DNA of 36,793 nucleotides, from the NCBI GenBank assembly GCA_018882895.1, contig VERF01000020.1, positions 1-36,793 of the forward strand. The letters run 5' to 3'. The notes under the pieces were generated by a model. The model saw only the letters and a list, made by a program, of their open reading frames with translations, was not told the DNA's origin and made no database searches. This document shows, piece by piece, positions 4,252 to 36,356 of this stretch. Source of the stretch: Candidatus Kapaibacterium sp. (GTDB taxonomy: Bacteria > Bacteroidota > Ignavibacteria > Kapaibacteriales > Kapaibacteriaceae). Both the position numbers and the translations under genes were made by a program. The first letter of the stretch is position 1. Every line of letters starts with the position of its first letter.

Positions 4252-4731
4252 ATGAATGACGATCTAGCACAACCAGAGGTCGGGCTAACTGACTCCAGAA
4301 ACGCTGAACACATGTTGCGTGTCCTTCACGGACATCTGAAGCGCAAGCGTGATGGTATCCGCACGTTGGCCGCCGACATCAATACTCTTGGCGAGCACGG
4401 GCATCTGCAAAGGCAGATAGCCAATGATCTGAGAGATCGCCTCTTGGCTCTGGTTCGCCGCGAAGATGAACTTACTTGGGCTGAGCGACAGATCCTCGAG
4501 CGGGATTCTCACATCGAAGAGCGCATTCGCTTTCATTACCCAGCAATGCCGAATCATCTTGTTGTGGTCTGCATCTGTATTGTCGATGGATTGTCAACAA
4601 ACGAGATCGCTTCCGTAGTCTGTAAGTCCGTCAAAGCAGTCGACCACTATCGGCAGGAGATCCGCCAGATACTCGGTCTTCACGGCGATCGGTCGTCGCT
4701 TCAGCGACATCTTCTCTCGATCGTTCGCTAG
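4252..4731 (+). CDS. Small LuxR/GerE-type HTH protein, no receiver domain
   Basis: The 159-residue product (from the ATG at 4252) has a charged helical N-terminal half rich in Arg/Glu/Leu (about 25-95), likely a coiled-coil or four-helix region, and a C-terminal HTH. In the HTH, IVDGLSTNEIASVV followed by SVKAVDHYRQEIRQILGL follows the GerE pattern. It resembles the DNA-binding end of Bacteroidota regulators but lacks a phosphoreceiver or sensor domain. It is divergent from the methyltransferase and convergent with hbd. A possible promoter is TTGACG at 4211-4216, with a weak AT-rich -10 near 4235. The ORF remains open back to a TTG at 4201, but that region looks like promoter. Confidence 0.7.
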   Translation: MNDDLAQPEVGLTDSRNAEHMLRVLHGHLKRKRDGIRTLAADINTLGEHGHLQRQIANDLRDRLLALVRREDELTWAERQILERDSHIEERIRFHYPAMPNHLVVVCICIVDGLSTNEIASVVCKSVKAVDHYRQEIRQILGLHGDRSSLQRHLLSIVR

Positions 4732-4766
4732 CTCAAACCTTCTGCTTGTGCATTAGAAATGCGGCG

Positions 4767-5618
4767 TCAGTAGCTGTAGAACCCCTTGCCGGTCTTGCGG
4801 CCTAGATGTCCGGCTGCGACCATTTTGCGTAGCAGCGGGCATGGGCGGTACTTCGAGTCGCCCAGCCCCGTGTGAAGCACTTCCATGATGCTGAGGCACA
4901 CGTCGAGCCCGATAAAGTCTGCCAGCGTCAGCGGCCCCATTGGATGGGCCATGCCGAGTTTCATCACCGTGTCGATGTCTTCAACCGAGGCGATTCCTTC
5001 CATCACACAGTACACCGCCTCATTGATCATTGGCATCAGAATGCGATTCGAGATGAATCCCGGATAGTCCTGCACTTCCACCGGCACCTTACCCATCGTC
5101 TCGGCCATCGACTTGATGGTGGCATAGGTTTCATCACTCGTGGCCAGTCCTCGGATGATCTCACATAGCTTCATCACCGGAACCGGATTGAAGAAGTGCA
5201 TACCGATGAACTTGTCGGCGCGTGATGTGCCCCCTGCCAACTCCGTGATCGAGATCGATGAAGTGTTACTGGCTAGAATCGCTTCGGGCTTGCACACTCT
5301 GTCGAGTGTAGCAAAGATCTGACGCTTGATCTCGAGACGCTCACTTGCTGCCTCGATCACAAGGTCTGCGCCCGTTGCCCCCTTCTCAAGATCCGTGGCC
5401 GTGCTGATTCGGCCAAGCACCTCGGCCATCTGCTCGGCTGTGATCGTTTCCTTCTTTACCTGGCGCTCGAGGTTCGTCGTGATGGTCTTGATCGCACGCT
5501 CGGTTGCGGCCTCCGATACGTCGACGAGGGTGACCATGAAGCCGCTCTGGGCAGCCACGTGAGCAATTCCATTGCCCATTGTGCCGCCGCCAATGACGGT
5601 GATCGTTGAGATGCTCAT
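4767..5618 (-). CDS. hbd: 3-hydroxybutyryl-CoA dehydrogenase
   Basis: The 283-residue protein opens with [18 protein letters not shown], the NAD-binding GxGxxG fold of the 3-hydroxyacyl-CoA dehydrogenase family. It continues with [10 protein letters not shown] and the catalytic-His region [13 protein letters not shown], and the C-terminal domain includes [13 protein letters not shown] and [11 protein letters not shown]. It oxidises 3-hydroxybutyryl-CoA to acetoacetyl-CoA, or the reverse, in butyrate or fatty-acid metabolism. Length matches the short bacterial Hbd form. GGAG lies 9 bp before the ATG. lgt is 49 bp upstream in the same direction. The acyl-CoA dehydrogenase at 19191 could supply the preceding oxidation step. 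Confidence 0.93.
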
Positions 5619-5646
5619 GTGCTGTGACTCCGTGAAAAAGGGAGCG

Positions 5647-5654
5647 CAAAAATA
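5647..5654 (-). promoter_or_regulatory. Possible -7 element for hbd
   Basis: TATTTTTG on the minus strand is a perfect TAnnTTTG match, 29 bp before the hbd ATG and just beyond the lgt stop codon. No TTTG element is visible at the expected upstream distance, which falls inside lgt coding sequence. If real, hbd can be transcribed independently of lgt. Confidence 0.3.
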
Positions 5655-5667
5655 GGTCGAAGGGGGC

Positions 5668-6456
5668 TTATCCGTTTCCGGTTTGACGCCGCGATCGCAA
5701 AAGAAAGACCAATCCTGCGGCGATGAACGGGATACTCAGGATCTGCCCCATGTCGATGGGCAGGGTTGCCTCGAAGTCAACCTGACGTTCCTTCAAAAAC
5801 TCGATCAGGAATCGACTCGTGAACAGAAGCACCATGAACAAGCCGATGATCATTCCGGGTCGTCTGGTTGCCACGCCCGATCGATACAAGCGCCACAAGC
5901 CAATGAACAATGCGAGGCATACCAAGGCTTCGTAGATCTGCGTAGGATGTCGGGCAAGGGGCTCGGCGTCCACCCGCATGAACCAGAAGCCCCATGGCAC
6001 ATCCGTCGGACGACCAATGATCTCGGAGTTCATCAGGTTGCCAAGGCGGATGCACATCCCCGATAGGGCAGCCATGATGGCCAACCGGTCAAGCAACCAT
6101 AACATCGAGTAGGACGGCAATGCACGGTGAAACAGAAACAGTCCGGTGATGATGCCAAGCGCACCACCGTGGCTTGCCAGCCCCCCGTGCCAGATGGCGA
6201 TCACTTCGAATGGATCGTCAAGAATGAGGCTTGGTTCGTAGAAGAGGACGTGACCCAGCCGCGCACCTAGGACGGTGCCGAACATCATGTAAAGCGTCAA
6301 ACGATCAAGATCAACCAACGGTTTCTTCTCGGCCTGGAAGACGCGCTTCATCGTCATGTAACTGAGCATGAAGGCCGTGGCAAACAGCACCCCGTACCAT
6401 CGCGGCGAAAGAGGCCCAATGGTGCCGATAACCGGGTCAACATTCCATTCGATCAT
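5668..6456 (-). CDS. lgt: Prolipoprotein diacylglyceryl transferase
   Basis: This inner-membrane enzyme attaches diacylglycerol to the lipobox cysteine of prolipoproteins, the first step of lipoprotein maturation. The protein is strongly hydrophobic with about seven membrane segments. It carries the family motifs [12 protein letters not shown], the signature region [15 protein letters not shown] (key Arg, Asn and Glu), and HPTQIYEA. I choose the ATG at 6456 (MIEWNVDP, 262 residues) with GGGGGA about 11 bp upstream. The frame extends to 6492, but that part lies within the terminator of the upstream gene. At least three lipoproteins in this window (11689, 13088, 30705) would be substrates. Confidence 0.93.
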
Positions 6457-6474
6457 GGTTGCAAACATATCCCC

Positions 6475-6510
6475 CAAAAACAACGCGCCCAACCGAATGG
6501 TTGAGCGCGC
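6475..6510 (-). terminator. Rho-independent terminator after the PD40/OmpA gene
   Basis: On the minus strand an 11-bp stem (6509-6499 with 6494-6484, one G-T pair) closes a 4-base loop and is followed by TTGTTTTT. It lies 26 bp after the stop of the large OmpA-family gene and immediately before lgt. Confidence 0.85.
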
Positions 6511-6535
6511 TAGAATTTCAGTAGTGTGAGGAAGC

Positions 6536-9181
6536 TTACTCGAGCTCGGCGTCTGCCAAAGGAGTCTCGATTATAACCTGCACCGTACGGTTGAAGAAGC
6601 GGCCTTCAGGAGAATCATTCGAGTAGAGTGGTTCTTCTTCACCAGTACCACGGGTTGACATTTCGGCGTACTTGTTACCGGTGGACTTGATGAACTTCTC
6701 GGCCGTGCCGGCACGCTGTTCCGAGAGCTTCTTGTTGCGCGTGTCCAGACCGACGACGTCTGTGTGTCCTTCGATGCGGATCACAGAGGACTTCTTGACG
6801 CGTGGGTATACCCACGTGGACATGATGCGCTCGTTAAGCTCACCAGCTTCGGGAGAGTCAAACTTGAAGAGAATCAGGTTGTACTTCTCGAGTGTCTTTG
6901 CGTCGCCAAGTCCAACACCGAGGCTCTTCGACGATACGCGCTTGACCGGTGTGGTGACGGTATCGGATTTACACTCTTGACCGTTCTTTGAAGTAACGAT
7001 CAGAACCGACTTGTATGGTGGCAGGTTGAACTCGGCGGTTCCGTCTGGACCCTTTTCCTTCGGATACTCGGCGTCGTCATTTTGCCAATCCCACTTAGCC
7101 TTTGGATCTGTAATGTTAAGGTCCTTCACCGTCTTCCAAATCTTGCCGTTGCGGAAGACTTCAATTCGACGCGATGCCACGATGTTGTTGTCGATACCAT
7201 TCTTCATCGAATAGTCGATCGTTGCTGGAGAAGGGAAGAGCGTAGGATCACGATCTTCAATTGGCTTCTGAACGTTCCACAGATCATCCTTCGAACCTGA
7301 GAACACAAGCTCCGTGCGACGGTTTTCGACGATACCGTTCGTGTCCTTCTTGTTCGATGGGAGTTCTGGCCAGCCCCGTGCCGTGAGCTTCATGCGGCTC
7401 TCCGGAATACCCCAAACATTCTTGAGGTAGTCGTACACGACCTGGGCACGTTGCTTTGGAAGGGGCGAATTCTTGTCTTCGTTGGTTTCATCCGTACAGC
7501 CAACAACTTCGACGCTTACGTTCGGGAACTTGCGGAGGCGATACCCGAAGATGTTCAGCGTGTGGTAGTACTTATCAAGTGTACCGCCGGGGAGTCGCTC
7601 GTCCGTAAAATCGGTCGTTTGGCCGGCCGTCAGGCGCTTGTAGCGAGCTGGCAAGGCACCACTGTTGAGATCGAAAAAGACATACGGAAGCAATGGGAAG
7701 AGCTGAATTGTTGCACGCTCTTCAATAACCAGACCCTTGAAGTTATTACCCTTCTTCTTGGCCCAGTCTGACAGCTCCATGTCGGCTGCCAGCGTTGGAC
7801 GTGAACCGAGCGTGATCGTCTTGCGGATCTCAGTTTGGGCGTTTGCTTCATCACGGTTTGTCGTGATACCGGGATACTGAACAGGAACCGTGATGCTACG
7901 CTGACCGTAGGTCTCTGATGAAGCGGTAACGGTCACGTTCACCGATCCGGCCTTGTTCTTGCCGGTACCGTAGTCATCGTCACCAACAATGATGTTCGAC
8001 TCGATGCTGGCAGTCGTGACCTCACCCTTGGATTCGCGACCTGTGATCGCATTCTTGTAGGTGATCGTGGCTGGTACATTCTGACCCGTACACTCATCAA
8101 CCACCGTCACGATAAGGTTAACAGCACGTGTGAATGTTGGGATAAAGGCCATGTAGATATCATACTCGCCCTTGGCACCCTTGATGTCCTCACGCTCCGA
8201 TGAGAAATACAGAACGTCACCAGATGGGGGCATCGAAAGGAATGCGTCGCGCTCAGGAGAGTTGATTGGCGCAGGAAGCTGATCAGGCTTGGCCCAGCGG
8301 TCGCGTCCTTCCTTGTCCTTCTCGCCCGTCTTGCGTGTGCGATAGAAGTCCAGCCCGCCCATGTTTGGAAGGTGTCCGTTCGACGAGAAGAACAGCGTAC
8401 GACCATCAGGTGCGATGAAAGGTGCCATTTCCTGAGCCGGCGTATTGACGTCCGGTCCGAGGTTCTTGGCCTTCTTCCACTCACCGAGATCGTCATCCCA
8501 ATCGCAATACCAAATGTCAAAGTCCTTGTCATCCTCATCTTCAGGGTGATTTGGGGACGGGCGATTCGATGTGAAGTAGAGCCGGGACTTATCCGGAGAG
8601 ATATATGGCTGCGAATCCCAGAACTCCGAGTTCACGTTCGGACCAAGGTTTTTGGGCTCCGTGAACTTGTCTCCGTCGACCTTGGCTTCCCAGATATCAC
8701 AGAAGCCGATACCCCCCGGGCGATTACAGCCTGTAAAGTACAAGGTCTGGCGGTCTGCAGCGATGGAGGCAGCGCCTTCGTCGCTCGACATATTGATTTC
8801 CGTGAGGTTTACCGGCTCACTGAAATTCGTGTCTTGGCTATCGGCCTTGGTTGTCTTCCAGAAGTCGTGCGAAAGCCTTCCTTCTGTCACGTTGAACTTA
8901 CTTCCGGGACGCTCCGAGACAAAGTAGAGAGTCTTGCCGTCCGCGCTCACAGTGGGAGCATAGTCAACCCCATCGTGATTGATCACGCCGAGATTGATGA
9001 TGCGAATCTTCTTCGGATCACCCAGAACGTCTCCACGCGAGTCATCTTGAACAGGAGCGCTCGCCGATATCGTGGCGCTGTACAGATACAACACCTTGTC
9101 GGCTGTACTCGCCTGCATACCTGCAAGGAGACAGACAAGGGTGACGATAGAGACCGCAACAAATCGCCGTACCATAGACAT
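6536..9181 (-). CDS. Large envelope protein: five PD40 repeats plus two OmpA domains
   Basis: The product is 881 residues from the ATG at 9181, which has AAAGGA just upstream. A signal peptide (about 1-26) is followed by roughly five PD40/WD40-like propeller repeats (about 70-350) with motifs such as SADGKTLYFVSE, SPDKSRLYFTSN and APDGRTLFFSSN. Next comes a carboxypeptidase-regulatory-like beta domain (about 355-460), a first OmpA-like domain (about 500-635) and a linker (about 640-740). A second OmpA domain (about 760-875) carries EGHTDVVG and FFNRTVQV. The second domain fits peptidoglycan binding; the first has GCTDE in place of the usual GHTD but keeps NRRTEL. Such proteins anchor outer-membrane complexes to the wall. 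It follows a barrel gene and has its own promoter. Confidence 0.88.
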   Translation of the reverse strand: MSMVRRFVAVSIVTLVCLLAGMQASTADKVLYLYSATISASAPVQDDSRGDVLGDPKKIRIINLGVINHDGVDYAPTVSADGKTLYFVSERPGSKFNVTEGRLSHDFWKTTKADSQDTNFSEPVNLTEINMSSDEGAASIAADRQTLYFTGCNRPGGIGFCDIWEAKVDGDKFTEPKNLGPNVNSEFWDSQPYISPDKSRLYFTSNRPSPNHPEDEDDKDFDIWYCDWDDDLGEWKKAKNLGPDVNTPAQEMAPFIAPDGRTLFFSSNGHLPNMGGLDFYRTRKTGEKDKEGRDRWAKPDQLPAPINSPERDAFLSMPPSGDVLYFSSEREDIKGAKGEYDIYMAFIPTFTRAVNLIVTVVDECTGQNVPATITYKNAITGRESKGEVTTASIESNIIVGDDDYGTGKNKAGSVNVTVTASSETYGQRSITVPVQYPGITTNRDEANAQTEIRKTITLGSRPTLAADMELSDWAKKKGNNFKGLVIEERATIQLFPLLPYVFFDLNSGALPARYKRLTAGQTTDFTDERLPGGTLDKYYHTLNIFGYRLRKFPNVSVEVVGCTDETNEDKNSPLPKQRAQVVYDYLKNVWGIPESRMKLTARGWPELPSNKKDTNGIVENRRTELVFSGSKDDLWNVQKPIEDRDPTLFPSPATIDYSMKNGIDNNIVASRRIEVFRNGKIWKTVKDLNITDPKAKWDWQNDDAEYPKEKGPDGTAEFNLPPYKSVLIVTSKNGQECKSDTVTTPVKRVSSKSLGVGLGDAKTLEKYNLILFKFDSPEAGELNERIMSTWVYPRVKKSSVIRIEGHTDVVGLDTRNKKLSEQRAGTAEKFIKSTGNKYAEMSTRGTGEEEPLYSNDSPEGRFFNRTVQVIIETPLADAELE

Positions 9182-20362: not shown

Positions 20363-20418
20363 GATTACGGATTACGGATTACGGATTACGGATGACGGAT
20401 TACGGATGACGGATGACT
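20363..20418. repeat. Heptamer tandem repeat, about eight copies of GATTACG
   Basis: Eight 7-bp units follow one another: GATTACG in units 1-4 and 6, GATGACG in units 5 and 7, and GATGACT as the last. It begins six bases after the acyl-CoA dehydrogenase stop. It resembles the heptameric short tandem repeats known between genes in other bacteria. A similar heptamer run occurs at 36303. Confidence 0.9.
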
Positions 20419-28126: not shown

Positions 28127-29794
28127 ATGTCGACGCGACTGGTAAGCCCCCTGCTGCTGGCATTGCTTTTGGCAGGCGCCGGCGTTCTTCGTGCGCAGAG
28201 TGCCGACGTAAATGCCGAGCGAGTTTCAATCGATGCTCAGATGCTTCGTTCGCTCGACGGAACAGCCTCGCTCATGGAGTCATCGGTGTTTCCGCAGAGC
28301 ATGATCAACCTCTCGGAACTGGCTCGCGACTCATCGGATTCATTCGCACGTTGGGTGGGATCATATTACAGCACCGTCATGCCCAATGCACCGTCTACGG
28401 ATGGCATGCACGTGGGTCGCATCACCGATGGACGCTGGCGTGGCCTGGTGCAGGCCGACGACGTGGTGCGCTTTCAGGCAGATGCATCCCTGATGCTGCG
28501 CGGTGGGTGGACCACCAATGAACAGAACACAAAGCCATTCCTGCTTGCACGCCCGTCACTGCGTTTCATGGGCTCCATGGCAGGGGGCTTCGGGTACTTT
28601 CTGGATCTTTCGAATGGCAGACGTTTTCTCGGCGGCTCTCGGCGCATAGCACGCACCGATCCGACACTTGCCCGCACAACAAAGTTCGTCAGCGAAGACA
28701 CGTCATTCTTCGATCGCTACGTTGGCTTCGTTCAGTATCAGACGTCATGGATGCGGATCCGCTATGGGCGCGAGGCCATGCAATGGGGAGCAAGCCCCAT
28801 TGACAACTTCGTTCACTCCCTGGAAGCCCCTTTGCTTGACGGGTTGCTGATCGATGTACCATACAAGAGTGTGCGCTATACGATGACGCACTCAAGTGCC
28901 AACAGTCTGGACACATCGGGCAACTCCGTTCCCGGCAAATTCATTGCCACACATCGTGTTGCCTTCGAACCAACCGATTGGCTGAATATCGCCGTCAACG
29001 ACATGATCGTCTACTGGGGTAGGGGGCTGGACTTTGCCTATCTGAATCCACTGGCCTTCTTTGTGAGCGCCGGCTTGTCGACGAAGGAACGCAACCTGAA
29101 CGACAACTCGATGCTGAGCTTCGATGTGGCCGTTCGTCCCATGCAGGGGATGCGCGCGTACGCGGCAATGGTCATCGATGATATCGGCTTTGGTACGCTG
29201 GGAGACACGTCGCGCCGTGGTAACAACAACAAGTTCGCCTATCAGGTTGGAGTTTCGCAGGCGCTTGGCTCGCCGGGCGCATCGTCACGATCGATGTTCA
29301 CGCTCGAGTATGCCCGCATCGATCCATTCACCTTCACGCACCGCAGCATCAACGCATCGTACTCTACGTTTGGTGCATCCATCGGCTACGACATGCAGCC
29401 GAATTCAGATCGCCTGGCGCTGCAGGCAAGGCATTGGTTCACGCCTCGCACATCGGTTCGCGTTGATCTCGATTACACCCGTAACGGCGAGAACCTACTT
29501 GATGCCAACGGCAGCATTCTCACGGCTGAGGATCCGTATTGGCCCGGCTCTGGGGCACTGGTTGCCATCGGAAACGTCGGTGGCGACATTTTGCGCGGCG
29601 ATGGAGACTTCATCTTTGGCAACCGCTTCCTGCGAGGCAATGTCAGCTATCAACGTCGCGCACGCGTTTGGTTCTCAGCCGAGTGGATGCCAAACTTCTT
29701 TACGGACTTCCGGATTGGCTACACCAATCGCAATGGTGGGAACAACCCTGAGTCGTTTCTCTTTGGGAGTCTCGAAGTCCGCATCGGTTACTGA
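28127..29794 (+). CDS. Wzi-like outer-membrane barrel, capsule assembly family
   Basis: The 555-residue product starts at the ATG at 28127; the earlier in-frame start lies inside the upstream gene. A signal peptide (about 1-23, ending LRAQ) precedes many amphipathic beta strands, ending FLFGSLEVRIGY with the terminal aromatic expected of an outer-membrane barrel. The segments RYGREAMQWGASPIDNF, IVYWGRGLDFAYLNPLAF and FFTDFRIGYTNRNGG fit the capsule-assembly Wzi family of Bacteroidota. The ligand is not known. It ends only 5 bp from the convergent Omp28-type gene. Confidence 0.75.
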   Translation: MSTRLVSPLLLALLLAGAGVLRAQSADVNAERVSIDAQMLRSLDGTASLMESSVFPQSMINLSELARDSSDSFARWVGSYYSTVMPNAPSTDGMHVGRITDGRWRGLVQADDVVRFQADASLMLRGGWTTNEQNTKPFLLARPSLRFMGSMAGGFGYFLDLSNGRRFLGGSRRIARTDPTLARTTKFVSEDTSFFDRYVGFVQYQTSWMRIRYGREAMQWGASPIDNFVHSLEAPLLDGLLIDVPYKSVRYTMTHSSANSLDTSGNSVPGKFIATHRVAFEPTDWLNIAVNDMIVYWGRGLDFAYLNPLAFFVSAGLSTKERNLNDNSMLSFDVAVRPMQGMRAYAAMVIDDIGFGTLGDTSRRGNNNKFAYQVGVSQALGSPGASSRSMFTLEYARIDPFTFTHRSINASYSTFGASIGYDMQPNSDRLALQARHWFTPRTSVRVDLDYTRNGENLLDANGSILTAEDPYWPGSGALVAIGNVGGDILRGDGDFIFGNRFLRGNVSYQRRARVWFSAEWMPNFFTDFRIGYTNRNGGNNPESFLFGSLEVRIGY

Positions 29795-29799
29795 CCCGA

Positions 29800-30705
29800 T
29801 TACGGCACGAACTTCTGTTTGACCACCTGAAGAACTTCACGGGTGGTACTGGCCTTGTGAGCAAAGGCCACGAGCTCGCAATTCTTCAAGGTCCACACAT
29901 TCAATGTATCGGCCGTGTTTAGCTTTTCGGCGGGGATCTCGTACCTCACTGTGCGCGTGATAACGGTTCCCTTCGGGACCGGCGTCGGATTCAGCGTGTC
30001 GCCCCACGTGCCATTGAAGGAAGTACGCAGAACATGTTCGAATTCGTAGTCTTCTATATGTGACGGCGTCCTGCGATAATCCTTCTGATCGCCAATGATG
30101 CCGTTCTCCTGCAGCCACACACTGATATTGGTCGAGGCATCGATGTTCTGCAACGCGGTGGCACGCACCGTGACGATCACGGTACGGCGCTCAGGGTAGT
30201 ACGTATGACTCAGGGCGAGGTCCACCACCGGTTGCAGCGGAAGCAGCTGCGCCACGGCCGGTTCCCAATTCTTCATTCCCTGGATGATGCGATTATTCAA
30301 CGTCACGCGGTTGACGAGTCCATTCGGATTGCCCGCACGGCTGATGCGGAAGGCCTGATCGAGCGCAACGCCGGCCGGGCACGTCAGGTCACGCACGAAG
30401 TCCGGTGGTTCCACCACGGCGAAGCCCCCTGCATGAATGGCTGTAACGATCACGCGTCCGTTGTTGTCGGCATAGATCTTCGCTGCCACGTCGGCCGCTT
30501 CCGGACAGTTTCCGCAGGTATGTCCGGTATAGTCTTCAAGCAACACATGCTGCAGGCCACCGGTCGAGACCACCGTCGATGACGTATCGCGAAGCGTCGT
30601 ATCGACCGGCACGATAGGGTTCTTTTCGTACGGACCTTCGATCACATCACAGGATGTCCCGATAATGCTGATGGCAAGAGCCAGAGTAATGAGAAGGGGC
30701 TTCAT
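29800..30705 (-). CDS. Omp28-type outer-membrane lipoprotein with CxxC motif
   Basis: The 301-residue product has a lipoprotein signal ending GTSC (Cys19). A thioredoxin-like start follows, LLEDYTGHTCGNCPEAAD, with CGNC at 64-67, and the Omp28-like region continues through IYADNNGRVIVTAIHAGGF. The C-terminal half is beta-rich. Omp28-type proteins are surface lipoproteins of Bacteroidota with an uncertain role; the CxxC suggests thiol redox activity or a disulfide. It is the third gene after TlpA and DUF6029, 9 bp after the barrel gene. Confidence 0.85.
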   Translation of the reverse strand: MKPLLITLALAISIIGTSCDVIEGPYEKNPIVPVDTTLRDTSSTVVSTGGLQHVLLEDYTGHTCGNCPEAADVAAKIYADNNGRVIVTAIHAGGFAVVEPPDFVRDLTCPAGVALDQAFRISRAGNPNGLVNRVTLNNRIIQGMKNWEPAVAQLLPLQPVVDLALSHTYYPERRTVIVTVRATALQNIDASTNISVWLQENGIIGDQKDYRRTPSHIEDYEFEHVLRTSFNGTWGDTLNPTPVPKGTVITRTVRYEIPAEKLNTADTLNVWTLKNCELVAFAHKASTTREVLQVVKQKFVP

Positions 30706-30714
30706 GGTGCCTGC

Positions 30715-32382
30715 TCAGAATGTGTACGTGATACTCATCGACGCGCCGTTGGAGGCAGGAACTGGACGGCAGATACCGCCAACGCACAGGATACCGCCAC
30801 GAACCCGGCCATAGCCGGCCTGGATCCGCAATGCATCCTTGGAGTAGGCGACCGATGCATTTGGATAGTGTACACGCAGCGCTTCTTCTTCGTTCCCAAA
30901 ATTGTATTCATTGAAGAGCGTGAAGAACCAGTGCGGAGACACCGTGTACTCGGCAAGTGCCATGATCCAGTCACCGTTCTGCAGGGCCTTCTTCACACCT
31001 GGCTCATGGGTGACGTCCATGTACTGCAGCTCAGTGCGAAGACTCTGATTCTTGGCCGTCTTGAACCACAGCTCCAGGCAGACGAAGCTCGCGTTGATGA
31101 TGCCGTAGATCTTTTCGCCCGGGGCGGCCCGACGTTCAATGACGTCCTGGTTGTAGTCGAGGTTGACGTATGTGAGCGTGGTCTTGAAATCACGACCGAA
31201 CTTCCGCTGGATCTCGATGTTCACATCGCGGTAGTAGAGATCGTCTCCCCACATGAACTCGGCGTCATACGTGTACGGTCCGGTATGCGTCGTATCCAGA
31301 CCATGGATCAGCGAACCATTCAGGGTGATCATGGTCTCATCATTGCCCAGCCAGCCCCCTTTCGGAATCGTCCATGCAACATCTGCCTGAAGAGCAAACT
31401 CTCCCGTCGGCTGTGTGGCATACGGATAGAGCGTGATCAGGCGAAGCGTATGCTGCTTGGAAAGAGCAGGCAGATAATTGACCTGCTGGGCAAAGCCCGT
31501 AGCGGTACGGTCACTGCGTAGGTCCATGTTATCGATGCGCTTGGCAGCGATGTTGATGCCGAGTCCCGTACCGGCCCATGATGCACTGGCATAGATGGCC
31601 GAGCCCGGATTGAAGGAGCTGGCATTGGTCGCGCTTGGGTCATTGATCTTATAGGCGTACTCAAAGTCGAGCGACAGATCATGCACCACAAGGTTGGCGC
31701 GGGTTGACCATGCGAACACGTTCTCGGGGATCTTCAACACGTCCTGGTCATCGGCCTGAAAGCGACTCACTCCGCTGAGGCCGAGCGTGAGCCGTGTCCC
31801 TTCCGGCAGAAGGTCGGACTTAAGCTGGTTGACGTCGAGATCCAGATCTGCACCGCGCATGATACCGTCGCTCAGAGCGAAGAATGCCCTCTGACGGCCG
31901 ATCAGACCGGTGATGGTCATACCTTCCGTGGGCATATACTTCAGGCGGACGCCGTCGATCGAGTTGTCGAATCCGAGATTGCGTTCCTCGTAGGTACGCA
32001 GGATCATTCCGCTGCCGAACTGCTCATAGAAGTTGCCGGCAGTGACCTCGAATGTCTCGTCGGCGAACTTCACAAACCGATATGGAATGCCTATTCCCGT
32101 TCCGGCACCCGATGATCCGAAACGCGGGTCGATACCGAGAAGGGGCCCTTGATACGACTCAAAGCGCACTCCGGCCGAGAACTTGCCGCGCTGCAAGGTG
32201 AGATTGAAAAATGTATTCGACAGGATCTGCTCCGGAACATCCGGGGCACCGATCAGAGAATCGGCTCCATACTGCTGAACATCCGTCTGCAGCGAGCCGT
32301 TGATGATCGTATTGTCACCGGAATCACCACCCTGTGCCCGGGCCATGACGCCGCAGCAGAGCAACGCAAGCAAAACCTTCAT
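30715..32382 (-). CDS. DUF6029-like outer-membrane barrel
   Basis: The 555-residue product has a signal peptide (about 1-17, MARAQ) and a long barrel: repeated beta strands, YEQFGSGMILRTYEERNLGFDNSIDGVRLKY near the first quarter in two adjoining strands, and the terminal SMSITYTF. It matches the DUF6029 barrels found beside Omp28 proteins. A C-terminal loop carries a Cys pair (CVGGIC), and another Cys lies in SFVCLELW. Translation may begin at the ATG at 32382, or at a GTG at 32388 that overlaps the TlpA stop; AGGGA lies upstream of both. Confidence 0.75.
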   Translation of the reverse strand: MKVLLALLCCGVMARAQGGDSGDNTIINGSLQTDVQQYGADSLIGAPDVPEQILSNTFFNLTLQRGKFSAGVRFESYQGPLLGIDPRFGSSGAGTGIGIPYRFVKFADETFEVTAGNFYEQFGSGMILRTYEERNLGFDNSIDGVRLKYMPTEGMTITGLIGRQRAFFALSDGIMRGADLDLDVNQLKSDLLPEGTRLTLGLSGVSRFQADDQDVLKIPENVFAWSTRANLVVHDLSLDFEYAYKINDPSATNASSFNPGSAIYASASWAGTGLGINIAAKRIDNMDLRSDRTATGFAQQVNYLPALSKQHTLRLITLYPYATQPTGEFALQADVAWTIPKGGWLGNDETMITLNGSLIHGLDTTHTGPYTYDAEFMWGDDLYYRDVNIEIQRKFGRDFKTTLTYVNLDYNQDVIERRAAPGEKIYGIINASFVCLELWFKTAKNQSLRTELQYMDVTHEPGVKKALQNGDWIMALAEYTVSPHWFFTLFNEYNFGNEEEALRVHYPNASVAYSKDALRIQAGYGRVRGGILCVGGICRPVPASNGASMSITYTF

Positions 32383-32384
32383 TG

Positions 32385-32891
32385 TCACTGCTTCCCTGTC
32401 AGCTTCTTCAGAAGCTGTTCGAGTTCTTCCTCATCGCCGGAGGAGTACGCACTGTGTGAGAACACCACCTTGCCGTTCTGGATGACGAAGGTGTGCGGAA
32501 CGTTATTCACGTTCATGGCGCGCTTGAACTCTTGATTCACATCCAGGAGTACCTCATAGCCCCACGTGCGAGACTTAATGAAGGGGGCGACCTTGGACGC
32601 GTTCCGTGCATCGTCGATCGACACGGCAACGAGCGAAGCCCCGTACTTTTCCTGCCACTCCGGATAGAGCGAATGATACGTCTGCAGTTCCTGGATGCAT
32701 GGTTTGCACCATGTTGCCCAGAAGCTGATGATCACCGGTTTGTCCGTTGTCCCGAAATCGGCCGTGTTGACGATCGTGCCGGCAACGTTCTTGATCTTCA
32801 CTGACGGAATCTTGGCCCCCGGAGAGTCCTGGGCCCTGAGGCCGACCGTAAGAACGAGCGCCACGATGACACTCAGAATCGTCTTTACCAC
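32385..32891 (-). CDS. TlpA-family periplasmic thioredoxin
   Basis: The 168-residue product has a signal peptide (about 1-20, LRAQ) and a thioredoxin fold with the active site WCKPC (61-65), the cis-Pro region NVPHTFVIQNGK, and an AhpC/TlpA-like SFWATW start. It is expected in the periplasm as a thiol-disulfide oxidoreductase, reducing or isomerising cysteines of envelope proteins. The DUF6029 barrel follows with essentially no gap and the Omp28-type lipoprotein follows that, both with Cys pairs. Confidence 0.9.
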   Translation of the reverse strand: MVKTILSVIVALVLTVGLRAQDSPGAKIPSVKIKNVAGTIVNTADFGTTDKPVIISFWATWCKPCIQELQTYHSLYPEWQEKYGASLVAVSIDDARNASKVAPFIKSRTWGYEVLLDVNQEFKRAMNVNNVPHTFVIQNGKVVFSHSAYSSGDEEELEQLLKKLTGKQ

Positions 32892-32930
32892 GTAAGCTCC
32901 CGCTGTCGAGAAAAATCGGTGGCGAGGCCC

Positions 32931-32938
32931 TAGATTTG
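32931..32938 (+). promoter_or_regulatory. Promoter core of the T9SS cargo gene
   Basis: TAGATTTG, followed by CA, matches TAnnTTTG. It lies 32 bp before the ATG at 32971 and between divergent genes, where a promoter is expected. It shares TAG[G/A]TTTGCA with the sites at 13844 and 19150. Confidence 0.4.
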
Positions 32939-32970
32939 CAGTTCACCACGCCATTTGAGGACGCCAAATT

Positions 32971-33672
32971 ATGAAAACTCATGTAGTTGCCTTGATGCTT
33001 GTTCTGGCCGCAACTGTCGGCATGGGACAGACCTTCTTCATCGACTGGAGCAAGCCGAACCCGATCACGGGTCCACCAACGCTCTCAACGATGAAGCGCG
33101 ACGGCTTGGTAAAGAACTCCACGGCCGGGACCAAGGAGCTGTATTTCCGCTACAACCTCGACGAGGTCAACACCGCCCACACGGCTCAGCTCTGTATGTC
33201 ATTATGCTGGCTCTTGTATCGTGGTGAGGATTTCCCGTTCGACCGCGAAGGTCAGATCCTGACGGCAGGTGCGGCGTTGCCGATCTATGTTGACCTGACG
33301 CCGAATGGCGTAGAGGCCAAGAGCACGATCAAGGTGACGCTGTTCGATAAGACCGATACAACCGACAAGCTGGACTTCGACGTGCAGTTCATCGTCAGCA
33401 AAGAGTCATCGGTTCGCGACATTGCCGATATCGGCATCACTGCGGGCCCCCTGCCATCATCGGATGTTGTAACCCTGCGTGGTGCAGCGCTTGAGCGCAC
33501 TTCACGGGTGGGTCTCTATGACATGACGGGTGCGCTTATCCGCTCGTATGGCGTTCCTCAGGGTTCGGCCGTTTCGTACCCACTGACGGGGCTGTCTGCC
33601 GGAACATATCGACTGATCCTTACCCTGCAGGACGGCTCGCAGAGCGGCACTGCAGTGGTTGTGACGCGCTGA
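32971..33672 (+). CDS. Secreted protein with a T9SS C-terminal sorting domain
   Basis: The 233-residue product has a signal peptide (about 1-19, ending GMGQ), a beta-rich central region (about 20-155) and a C-terminal type-A sorting-like domain (about 165-233). The latter has VGLYDMTGALIRSYG, YPLTGLSAGTYRLIL and the terminal GTAVVVTR. This pattern marks cargo of the type IX secretion system, exported through the outer membrane and cleaved there. The central part is not recognised. GAGG lies before the ATG. Confidence 0.8.
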   Translation: MKTHVVALMLVLAATVGMGQTFFIDWSKPNPITGPPTLSTMKRDGLVKNSTAGTKELYFRYNLDEVNTAHTAQLCMSLCWLLYRGEDFPFDREGQILTAGAALPIYVDLTPNGVEAKSTIKVTLFDKTDTTDKLDFDVQFIVSKESSVRDIADIGITAGPLPSSDVVTLRGAALERTSRVGLYDMTGALIRSYGVPQGSAVSYPLTGLSAGTYRLILTLQDGSQSGTAVVVTR

Positions 33673-33703: not shown

Positions 33704-35536
33704 ATGAATCGGATGCTTCCTCCGGCACGACAAGCTCTCGTCCTATCGGTCGGGGCCTTCGTCCTCTACGCGCTCACCCACGCACCATCGGTTCAGTACA
33801 CGGACAACGGCGAGCTAGCCGCCGCGGGCGTCACCTTCGGTGTGGCGCATCCGACCGGATATCCGCTTTTCACGATCCTGACCAACCTCTGGTCGAAGGT
33901 CAGCACAGACATAAGCTGGCTGAACCTTCTCTCAGGACTTTGGTGTGCCATGGCCGTGGGCCTCATGCACGCTCTGGTGCGCAACGTTCTCGAACTGGTT
34001 GATGGGCAGGAGCGTCCGGCGCACACCATCGTTGCCACGGTGGTTGCCGGCATGCTTGGAGCCAGCTCGATAGTCTGGTCGCAGGCAACTTCGCTTGAGG
34101 TGTATTCGCTGCACCTGTGTCTGCTGGTGCTTACGTTAACACTGCTGAGCCGCAGCTTACTTGATGATGACCGCTGGCCTCGATGGTCCGTCCTTGCGGG
34201 CCTCTCTTATGGGCTGATGCTGGCCAACCACCTCTCGAGCGTCTTCCTTGCTCCGGGACTTATCCTGCTTTGGCTCTCGGCGGCGCGAGAGGGACAGATA
34301 CGTCGGTGGTATCTGGTTGTGATGCCGGCATTGCTCGGCGTTCTGCTCTATGCCGTTCTGCCACTTCGCAGTGCCCAGGAGCCCCCTATCAACTGGGGCA
34401 TGGTGCACCGAAGCTGGGACGCCTTCCTCTACCACGTCAAGGGCACGCAGTTCGGCGTGTGGATGTTCAGTGACCGCACGGTATTCAAGGTCAACTGGCG
34501 CATCTTCTTCGGAGTGCTCAGCAACGCCTCGGTGTGGGTTGGCTTTCTGCCGCTTGCCATTGGTGTGTGGACGGCTTTGCGGAAGCTTCCAGGCAGGGGG
34601 CTTGCGCTGATCGCACTGGTTCTGGGCAACCTCGGCATCGCCCTGGGATATTCGATTCCCGACATTGAGCCCTACTTCCTTCCGTCGGTGGTGGCGATGC
34701 TGCTGTTCGTGGGCATTGGCCTTGACGCAGCGGCGCGCCGTCTTCCGTCGAAGGCCCTTCCGGTGCTGCTGCTTGTTCCGGCGATCTCGATTGGCGTCAA
34801 CTTCATCAGTGGCGACCGTTCGAATCATCGCGCTGTTGAGGGCTATACCCAATGGGTTCTTGCCAATGCAGAGCCCAATGCGGTCATCATCTCACGTCAG
34901 TGGGACTTCTTCATCTCAGCGGCTTGGTATGAGCAGACCGTGCGAGGAACACGTCCGGATGTGGTGGTGATCGACAAGGAGTTGTTCCGACGCACCTGGT
35001 ACGCCCCCTACCTTATGAAGCTCCATCCCGATGTCATGGGGCGGGCACAGTCCCAGATCGATGCTTACATGCCATTGCTTGCGGACTTCGAGCGTGATGG
35101 TGATGCGTTCATCAAGGCAGGCCGATCCGCAGAGATCCAGGCGCGATTTGTCGAGATGCTCAATGCCATTCTCTCGGCAAACCAAAACCGTCCGCTCTAC
35201 ATCACGCAGGAACTTGTCAGCGAAGAGCCCGGCTTTGCCGTCGGATGGGACATGCTTCCGGCCGGACCGCTGATACGGCTGGTTCGTGCCGATGCGCCGG
35301 CAGCGCAGCGCGTCTCACTGGCAGGCACCGAGCAGATCGTCACTACGCTCTCGGTACCGCGAGAGCGGCTCGACTCGTCATTGCGCGACATTGTCCTGAA
35401 CTCTCTCGGCTCGACGGCGTTGTATCGGCTCGACGCGTTTGCCGACACCACCGCATTCCGAGCGCATCGGTCCATTGCCGAGCGCATCGCCCCCTCTCAT
35501 CCCGTCACGGATCGTCTGCGTTCGGTTCTTCCGTAA
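33704..35536 (+). CDS. DUF2723 membrane glycosyltransferase (GT117-type)
   Basis: The 610-residue protein has about ten to twelve membrane helices in its first 390 residues and a soluble C-terminal domain of about 220. The N-terminal motif PSVQYTDNGELAAAG (Asp34, Glu37), then GVAHPTGYPLF, are hallmarks of the DUF2723 family, likened to protein O-mannosyltransferases of the GT-C fold and classed as GT117. It probably transfers a sugar from a lipid carrier on the periplasmic side; donor and acceptor are unknown. It lies 31 bp after the T9SS cargo gene and 21 bp before the exonuclease gene. Confidence 0.88.
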   Translation: MNRMLPPARQALVLSVGAFVLYALTHAPSVQYTDNGELAAAGVTFGVAHPTGYPLFTILTNLWSKVSTDISWLNLLSGLWCAMAVGLMHALVRNVLELVDGQERPAHTIVATVVAGMLGASSIVWSQATSLEVYSLHLCLLVLTLTLLSRSLLDDDRWPRWSVLAGLSYGLMLANHLSSVFLAPGLILLWLSAAREGQIRRWYLVVMPALLGVLLYAVLPLRSAQEPPINWGMVHRSWDAFLYHVKGTQFGVWMFSDRTVFKVNWRIFFGVLSNASVWVGFLPLAIGVWTALRKLPGRGLALIALVLGNLGIALGYSIPDIEPYFLPSVVAMLLFVGIGLDAAARRLPSKALPVLLLVPAISIGVNFISGDRSNHRAVEGYTQWVLANAEPNAVIISRQWDFFISAAWYEQTVRGTRPDVVVIDKELFRRTWYAPYLMKLHPDVMGRAQSQIDAYMPLLADFERDGDAFIKAGRSAEIQARFVEMLNAILSANQNRPLYITQELVSEEPGFAVGWDMLPAGPLIRLVRADAPAAQRVSLAGTEQIVTTLSVPRERLDSSLRDIVLNSLGSTALYRLDAFADTTAFRAHRSIAERIAPSHPVTDRLRSVLP

Positions 35537-36289: not shown

Positions 36290-36302
36290 GTTGCAGTCAG
36301 GT

Positions 36303-36328
36303 TGCAGGTTACAGGTTACAGGTTACAG
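36303..36328. repeat. Heptamer tandem repeat, GGTTACA-type
   Basis: Units of GGTTGCA/GGTTACA follow each other (GGTTGCA once after a broken copy, then GGTTACA three times), just after the exonuclease stop. It leads directly into the 14- and 16-bp repeats. The pattern and position resemble the GATTACG run at 20363. Confidence 0.8.
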
Positions 36329-36356
36329 GTCTCGCACCGAAGGTCTCGCACCGAAG
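36329..36356. repeat. Two copies of a 14-bp unit bordering the 16-bp array
   Basis: GTCTCGCACCGAAG is repeated twice exactly. It is the 16-bp unit of the next array with one internal CG-for-C difference and a missing terminal base, so it looks like an ancestral or truncated form. Confidence 0.85.

Follow-up and report, generated by a model that had tools for sequence, protein, structure and literature searches.

Why would a periplasmic thioredoxin, an outer-membrane barrel and a lipoprotein, each carrying a cysteine pair, be encoded in one compact run? The question is raised by a stretch of 36,793 nucleotides from Candidatus Kapaibacterium sp. (contig VERF01000020.1; the whole stretch is hereafter called the window), in which the genes for a TlpA-like thioredoxin, a barrel of the DUF6029 family and an Omp28 lipoprotein follow each other tightly, head to tail, on the minus strand. 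An initial annotation, made from the letters alone, had proposed either a redox relay or a dedicated folding system. Its description of three closely packed genes with WCKPC, CVGGIC and CGNC motifs was confirmed in open reading frames (ORFs), Pfam matches and motifs alike, and a fourth member of the set, a divergently transcribed gene at 32971-33672, had been overlooked.

We give about even chances to the set being an outer-membrane dithiol relay that runs from TlpA via a barrel loop to surface thioredoxins. Gene linkage, conserved cysteines, gene fusions, a link to type IX secretion and predicted folds are shown, and all bear on this reading. We infer complex formation, dithiol transfer, its outward (reducing) direction and its substrate as follows. 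DsbD would keep the periplasmic TlpA reduced, and TlpA would dock at or in the lumen of the wide (~24-strand) DUF6029 barrel, where its dithiol would be exchanged with the C-x-x-G-x-C hairpin pair in the last extracellular loop. From this pair the dithiol would pass to a thioredoxin-fold protein at the surface, either Omp28 or one of its type IX-sorted or TlpA-like stand-ins, which in turn would reduce or isomerise disulfides of surface proteins. The fourth protein, a small Cys protein, may be a partner or a substrate. The features concerned are the following.

32385-32891, minus strand: TlpA/ResA-like thioredoxin, 168 amino acids (AhpC-TSA, E 6.7e-21), in which inspection shows a signal peptide but no lipobox
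32697-32711, minus strand: WCKPC motif of TlpA, residues 61-65
30715-32388, minus strand: DUF6029 outer-membrane barrel, 557 amino acids, 24 predicted strands (PF19494, E 1.5e-164)
30769-30786, minus strand: CVGGIC motif of the barrel, C535 and C540, in a predicted short hairpin of the last extracellular loop (residues 530-545)
29800-30705, minus strand: Omp28 lipoprotein, 301 amino acids, with a thioredoxin domain (~49-157) and a beta-sandwich (~158-301) (PF11551, E 7.7e-22)
30505-30516, minus strand: CGNC active-site motif of Omp28, C64 and C67
30649-30651, minus strand: Cys19 of Omp28, the probable lipid anchor (invariant in a 55-sequence alignment; lipobox by inspection)
32892-32970: divergent intergenic region of 79 bp between TlpA and the small Cys protein
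32971-33672, plus strand: small Cys protein, 233 amino acids, probably Ig-like, the fourth set member
33193-33207, plus strand: CMSLC pair of the small Cys protein, C75 and C79

The barrel ORF shares 4 bp with the TlpA ORF, and the Omp28 ORF starts 9 bp past the barrel ORF. TlpA reaches 74.9 bits for AhpC-TSA (cut-off 26) and 57 bits for Redoxin (cut-off 26.6), and stays under the curated cut-offs for rhizobial TlpA (NF047696, 38.5 vs 230 bits) and ResA (NF002854, 71.9 vs 170 bits). The DUF6029 profile covers residues 4-557 of the barrel at 549 bits (cut-off 27). Omp28 scores 78.4 bits for PF11551 (cut-off 34.9) and lies below the curated cut-off of the NCBIfam model lipoprot_Omp28 (NF033782, 126 vs 150 bits). 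C62 and C65 are the only cysteines of TlpA; besides the residues listed, the barrel holds C11, C12 and C437, and Omp28 holds C109 and C276. The closest relative among the best 80 of 578 matches is an uncultured Ignavibacteria genome (L132), whose barrel is 70% identical.

Linkage of TlpA and the DUF6029 barrel

Searching 392 genomes of the phylum and 14 controls with the Pfam profile, we found DUF6029 in 104 of the 392 (102 above cut-off). The positive genomes represent 66 of 179 genera, and the 14 control genomes gave no match. The main set comprises 101 DUF6029 loci from 100 genomes, of which 100 loci were fetched by the profile and one is the window; the positive genomes G163, G175, G227 and G379 lie outside it, and G176 contributes two loci. 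A second set consists of the best 80 of 578 loci, with a stretch of at most 5 kb on either side, and the Cys motif itself was one of its search patterns. The two sets overlap: L133 and L111 look like the same contig, as do L200 and L109.

TlpA is adjacent or fused to DUF6029 in 86 of the 101 loci (79 directly upstream on the same strand, five divergent and two fused), and in 53 its end overlaps the barrel gene or lies within 10 bp of it. Chance adjacency at this frequency would be rare, since the window genome contains only nine AhpC-TSA matches in total. A TlpA gene is likewise found in 71 of the 80 stretches of the second set, with WCxxC in 70 of 71 TlpA ORFs shorter than 260 amino acids. 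The closest form of linkage is seen in two species of one genus, which encode TlpA and DUF6029 in a single chain: L101 (678 amino acids) has TlpA at residues 31-160 and DUF6029 at 165-676, and L105 (667 amino acids; 4530-6533) has them at 23-154 and 158-667. Both fusions keep WCVPC and CVGGVC, and no second signal peptide was seen at the junction by inspection. A fusion placed almost without linker before strand 1 makes entry of TlpA into the pore plausible, without proving it.

Linkage of this kind could also mark a folding system, in which TlpA, perhaps together with Omp28, would form, reduce or isomerise the single disulfide of the barrel during assembly, the function of the barrel itself being a separate matter. 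Dsb proteins do such work for LptD; the 53 loci with overlapping or nearly touching genes are in line with this, and the conserved pair in a tight hairpin fits a structural disulfide. A catalyst, however, need not be fused one-to-one to its client, yet two species do so, and folding leaves unexplained the second thioredoxin-fold protein after the barrel, the type IX-tailed ones and the conserved inward residues described below. We regard it as unlikely that folding accounts for the set. The interpretation of the initial annotation is supported in part, as the fusions and the replacement of Omp28 by thioredoxin-like proteins favour a working redox complex.

Cysteine pair and predicted fold of the barrel

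Both cysteines of the C-x-x-G-x-C motif are present in 99 of 101 barrels, and the two exceptions are a locus with a broken frame (L039) and one with an ORF cut short (L041). The next-best column has cysteine in 7 of 101 sequences and falls in the signal peptide. Exactly two cysteines past residue 30 are found in 79 of the 101 barrels, and in all 79 they are the motif pair. From the first motif cysteine to the barrel end there are 23 residues in 90 of 99 barrels, 24 in eight and 25 in one. The pair also occurs in 80 of 80 loci of the second set, a count that is not independent because the Cys motif was one of the search patterns. The initial annotation had asked whether the cysteines might vary among homologues with the same neighbours; they are kept in the barrel as stated and in Omp28 as CxxC in 83 of 85 ORFs of the main set, the two exceptions being fragments at locus ends.

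The model of the barrel (mean pLDDT, the predicted local distance difference test, of 93.3) places the cysteines in a hairpin of predicted strands 532-536 and 539-543 within the last extracellular loop, with both termini periplasmic on a count of 24 strands made by eye on the DSSP line of the model. The Cys loop (530-545) is one of the two least variable loops, at 0.63 bits the lowest listed, together with that at 121-143. Strand residues facing inward are more conserved than those facing outward (1.46 vs 1.90 bits, P = 6e-5), the facing having been assigned from the hydrophobicity of alternate residues. The top fold matches are the ushers FimD (Z 18.2) and PapC (Z 17.3) over 373 residues, and as the 18-strand Occ porins follow closely at Z 16-17, the match is one to barrels in general. 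The pores of FimD and PapC are wide enough for a folded domain. Compared by sequence with solved structures, DUF6029 gave one weak match, to RecA (E 0.13), which we take as chance.

A quite different function for the barrel has been suggested in the literature. Papers cited in part in the present account are PMC9603273, PMC9477747, PMC9722745, PMC13404670, PMC5403849 and PMC2907840. PMC9603273 is the one open-access paper found to mention DUF6029, and its cited part reports an HHpred likeness between plug-less Wzi barrels and DUF6029 and considers a polysaccharide porin. DUF6029 would then serve the export of polysaccharide or other cargo, and the thioredoxins would be incidental neighbours. 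A Wzi-like capsule-assembly barrel (PF14052, E 6.7e-10) at 28139-29794 indeed adjoins Omp28, convergent with it, and its cluster (c4) recurs in eight close-kin loci including the window. Nevertheless, when the 19 other neighbour clusters that recur most were sampled by one representative apiece, no polysaccharide-export family was matched at E 1e-5, and the thioredoxin linkage, fusions included, extends far beyond c4, so that export with chance neighbours seems very unlikely. The representative of c4 itself gave no match in that neighbour scan at E 1e-5.

Omp28, its stand-ins and the type IX link

Omp28 lies in the fetched stretch of 72 of 101 loci, and 17 more hold a downstream thioredoxin-like gene instead, which brings the total to 89. 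In the second set Omp28 is present at 74 of 80 loci, with CxxC in 103 of 104 Omp28 ORFs. Besides Cys19, the 55-sequence alignment is invariant at C64, C67, P68 and P127, the last at the cis-proline position. The model of the window protein (pLDDT 92.6) shows the elements of a thioredoxin fold in its N-terminal domain, and its best match is HBP35 of Porphyromonas gingivalis (PDB 5y1a; Z 23.5, 220 residues, 2.5 Å, 18% identity; Foldseek E 4.5e-12); thioredoxin 1v98 matches with Z 8.7 over 82 residues. To call Omp28 a protein of no firm function, as had been done at the outset, hence understates the case, for the thioredoxin activity of HBP35 is published. According to the cited texts, HBP35 with dithiothreitol outdoes Escherichia coli thioredoxin at insulin reduction and loses this activity without its two cysteines, and its modified 50-90 kDa form is found chiefly in the outer membrane. 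What the thioredoxin domain does physiologically is unknown according to its authors, who suggest the upkeep of the cell-surface redox state. A type IX-sorted HBP35-like thioredoxin has already been proposed to protect surface proteins, with no outer-membrane donor named in the cited part of that work (PMC13404670).

The 17 stand-in loci belong nearly all to one family (f33), where most of these proteins resemble TlpA and carry GANCPHC or a near variant. They were counted by motif and position and their location is putative; at L086 the thioredoxin-like gene lies upstream, and the locus is counted among the 12 without. Lipoprotein-like and tailed forms of the f33 stand-ins were told apart by text pattern, as were the type IX and lipoprotein flags of Omp28, and tails are confirmed by profile for the proteins named here. 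Of two stand-ins scanned at L085, one carries Por_Secre_tail (1.8e-9) and the other none. Further tailed TlpA-like proteins are L092:7496-8971 and L115:2868-4334, and tailed Omp28-type proteins are L057:1235-3526, L069:6735-8387 and L047:5060-6373. The window Omp28 gave no Por_Secre_tail match up to E 1 in Pfam and NCBIfam. A 689-residue ORF at L032:2917-4986 holds two Omp28 domains, each with CxxC; its genome, G230, is the sole DUF6029 genome without a SprA match.

The likeness to HBP35 also brings up metal or heme handling, in which the barrel would pass a metal or hemin, to be bound or reduced by the cysteine pairs. Many loci of the stand-in family lie near a DtxR-type repressor (10 loci) and near TonB receptors (clusters c3 and c1). 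This repressor cluster, however, was seen only in that one family, and TonB receptors are common in the phylum. HBP35 binds hemin, but its CxxC is dispensable for this binding in the cited account. On balance a role in metal or heme handling appears decidedly unlikely. At L088:2453-3642 and similar f33 loci, a DtxR-type iron-dependent repressor and a WCTYC thioredoxin-like gene, with TonB receptors close by, adjoin the DUF6029 set, a possible metal or heme link.

Other leads on Omp28 have no bearing on the relay. The selenoprotein Omp28 model (NF045500) matched none of 198 genomes at E 1e-25, and since the controls gave no match either, the search says nothing either way and was dropped as support. 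The Omp28-related, trypsin-binding protein 00502 of Paraprevotella was not used, as the words thioredoxin and disulfide are absent from the cited part of the text (PMC9477747), and Brucella Omp28 shares the name and is unrelated.

The small Cys protein has its only two cysteines in the motif LCMSLCW. It has relatives at 37 of 101 loci and at 41 of 80 in the second set, and both columns are cysteine in 36 of the 37 aligned relatives. Its own type IX tail stays under the cut-offs (17.3 vs 27 bits in Pfam, 15.4 vs 23 in NCBIfam), a tail above the Pfam cut-off is present in all four relatives scanned (L053, L112, L047 and L034), and the relative in L102 gave no tail match in an NCBIfam scan. At L047:8400-9836 an Omp28 domain (28-238) is fused to a small Cys domain (237-392), and the end of the protein looks type IX-tailed. 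In the same locus, a tailed protein (6863-8350) repeats the small Cys domain three times in tandem, and an extra N-terminal CC-x-C cluster is found in the small Cys proteins L034:7138-7983, L035:3635-4447 and L037:3551-4441. The gene adjoining the small Cys protein in the window, 33704-35536, belongs to the TMEM260-like protein O-mannosyl-transferase family and is also conserved among close relatives (cluster c6).

DUF6029 is nearly restricted to genomes with type IX secretion. The type IX translocon SprA is present in 103 of 104 DUF6029 genomes (counted by eye from two listings), and DUF6029 in one of 72 SprA-negative genomes. The Fisher test for this association gives 6.8e-10, a value that overstates independence, because the clades are not independent and the listed SprA-negative genomes are nearly all of one family.

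Elsewhere in the window, 29 copies of a 16-bp unit, matching at 96%, are arrayed in tandem at the contig end (36329-36793), with ORFs running through on both strands, and 7-bp arrays lie at 20363-20414 and 36298-36330. As regards a plasmid-borne set, there was no near match among the plasmids searched; phages and E. coli genomes were outside this search.

Direction of flow and comparison with known systems

DsbD_TM, the membrane part of the reducing source, gave matches in 12 of 13 genomes, among them that of the window, whereas VKOR was found in none of the 13 (DsbB being outside this search), and at L096 a full DsbD gene directly follows DUF6029. These findings bear on whether the same relay might run in reverse, with the surface thioredoxin-fold proteins kept oxidised so as to form disulfides in exported proteins. 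CPHC, present in many stand-ins, is the motif of DsbA, and the cited work describes complementation of an E. coli dsbA mutant by HBP35. Against such inward flow stand the distribution of DsbD_TM and VKOR, the DsbD neighbour at L096 and the WCKPC-type motif kept in TlpA, which belongs to reducing thioredoxins. We consider flow in this direction improbable.

The outward relay is itself faced with several difficulties. The initial annotation had the cysteines at the places expected for passing electrons from periplasm to surface, which agrees with the pair in the outer loop, but no conserved cysteine is found at the periplasmic end of the barrel; as the sole conserved pair sits at the outer end, TlpA would have to enter the pore. 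An adjacent TlpA is missing by script in 15 of 101 loci, among which L035 has an ORF over-extended onto TlpA, L047 and L053 have the Omp28 gene in between, and L055 lies at a contig end. Several loci without TlpA hold a TPR-like protein in its position, and at 12 of 101 the fetched stretch lacks both Omp28 and a downstream thioredoxin-like gene. G348, which carries the TlpA-DUF6029-Omp28 set (L113), gave no DsbD_TM match, and a search for the membrane part of DsbD at the loci found it in one of 101 (L096) and in none of the 80 of the second set. Surface exposure of the window Omp28 is putative, the cited part of the HBP35 work gives no positive result on oxidative-stress protection, and CPHC in the stand-ins recalls the oxidising DsbA, which leaves the outward direction putative. 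The TPR-like proteins, named by inspection, have 208-246 amino acids and replace TlpA before DUF6029 in L033, L109, L120, L134, L173, L178, L185 and L200.

If the outward relay is real, type IX-secreting Bacteroidota would possess a powered thiol-redox system outside the cell, and roughly one in four of the sampled genomes of the phylum (104/392) would have disulfides beyond the outer membrane under metabolic control. Surface thioredoxins like HBP35 are known from bacteria with type IX secretion; without a donor such a protein would act once, and the set offers a concrete donor route. It would also give roles to DUF6029 and Omp28, two families without a firm one. We tentatively propose, at somewhat less than even chances, that DUF6029 is the first outer-membrane dithiol conduit, with a TlpA domain in its lumen and a hairpin at its outer mouth that supplies thioredoxins, either lipid-anchored or type IX-sorted, with reducing equivalents from the cytoplasm. 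Each part belongs to a known family, and their combination into a thiol system of the outer membrane appears to be new: in the parts of the open-access PMC literature consulted, on Omp28 together with thioredoxins, TlpA or the type IX system and on outer-membrane thiol relays, no description of this set was found.

Among known systems, HBP35 resembles the window Omp28 in joining a thioredoxin domain to a beta-sandwich, in its CxxC and in its outer-membrane location, the two-cysteine thioredoxin activity being that of HBP35. The surface form of HBP35 needs C-terminal residues, whereas the window Omp28 has a probable lipid anchor and no type IX tail match. The Omp28 domain of P. gingivalis (2r2c) matches the C-terminal domain of the window protein in sequence and in fold (Z 11.7, 105 residues), but the alignment of the solved chain is limited to residues 142-301 and leaves out the CGNC domain. 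AGR_C_4864 of Agrobacterium (2axo) is the second-best fold match of Omp28 (Z 17.6, 200 residues) at 12% identity.

In the inner membrane and the periplasm, DsbD, TlpA and DsbC make up reducing pathways. These share with the set the arrangement of thioredoxin-fold proteins in series with a Cys-pair membrane protein, which in the window is an outer-membrane barrel instead. The FimD and PapC ushers are about 10% identical to DUF6029, with Foldseek TM-scores of 0.31-0.54 among the first 20 matches; of the chaperone-usher pore only the barrel superposes, and DUF6029 is the sole Pfam family above cut-off, covering nearly the whole protein. Match 24 of the same Foldseek list is chain 6r2q_B, of MtrCAB. 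MtrCAB is an outer-membrane electron conduit in which a barrel houses a redox protein. It is heme-based, unlike the window set, where CxxCH is absent from all four proteins and thus no multiheme cytochrome motif is present there; what the two have in common is the idea of a barrel around a redox protein.

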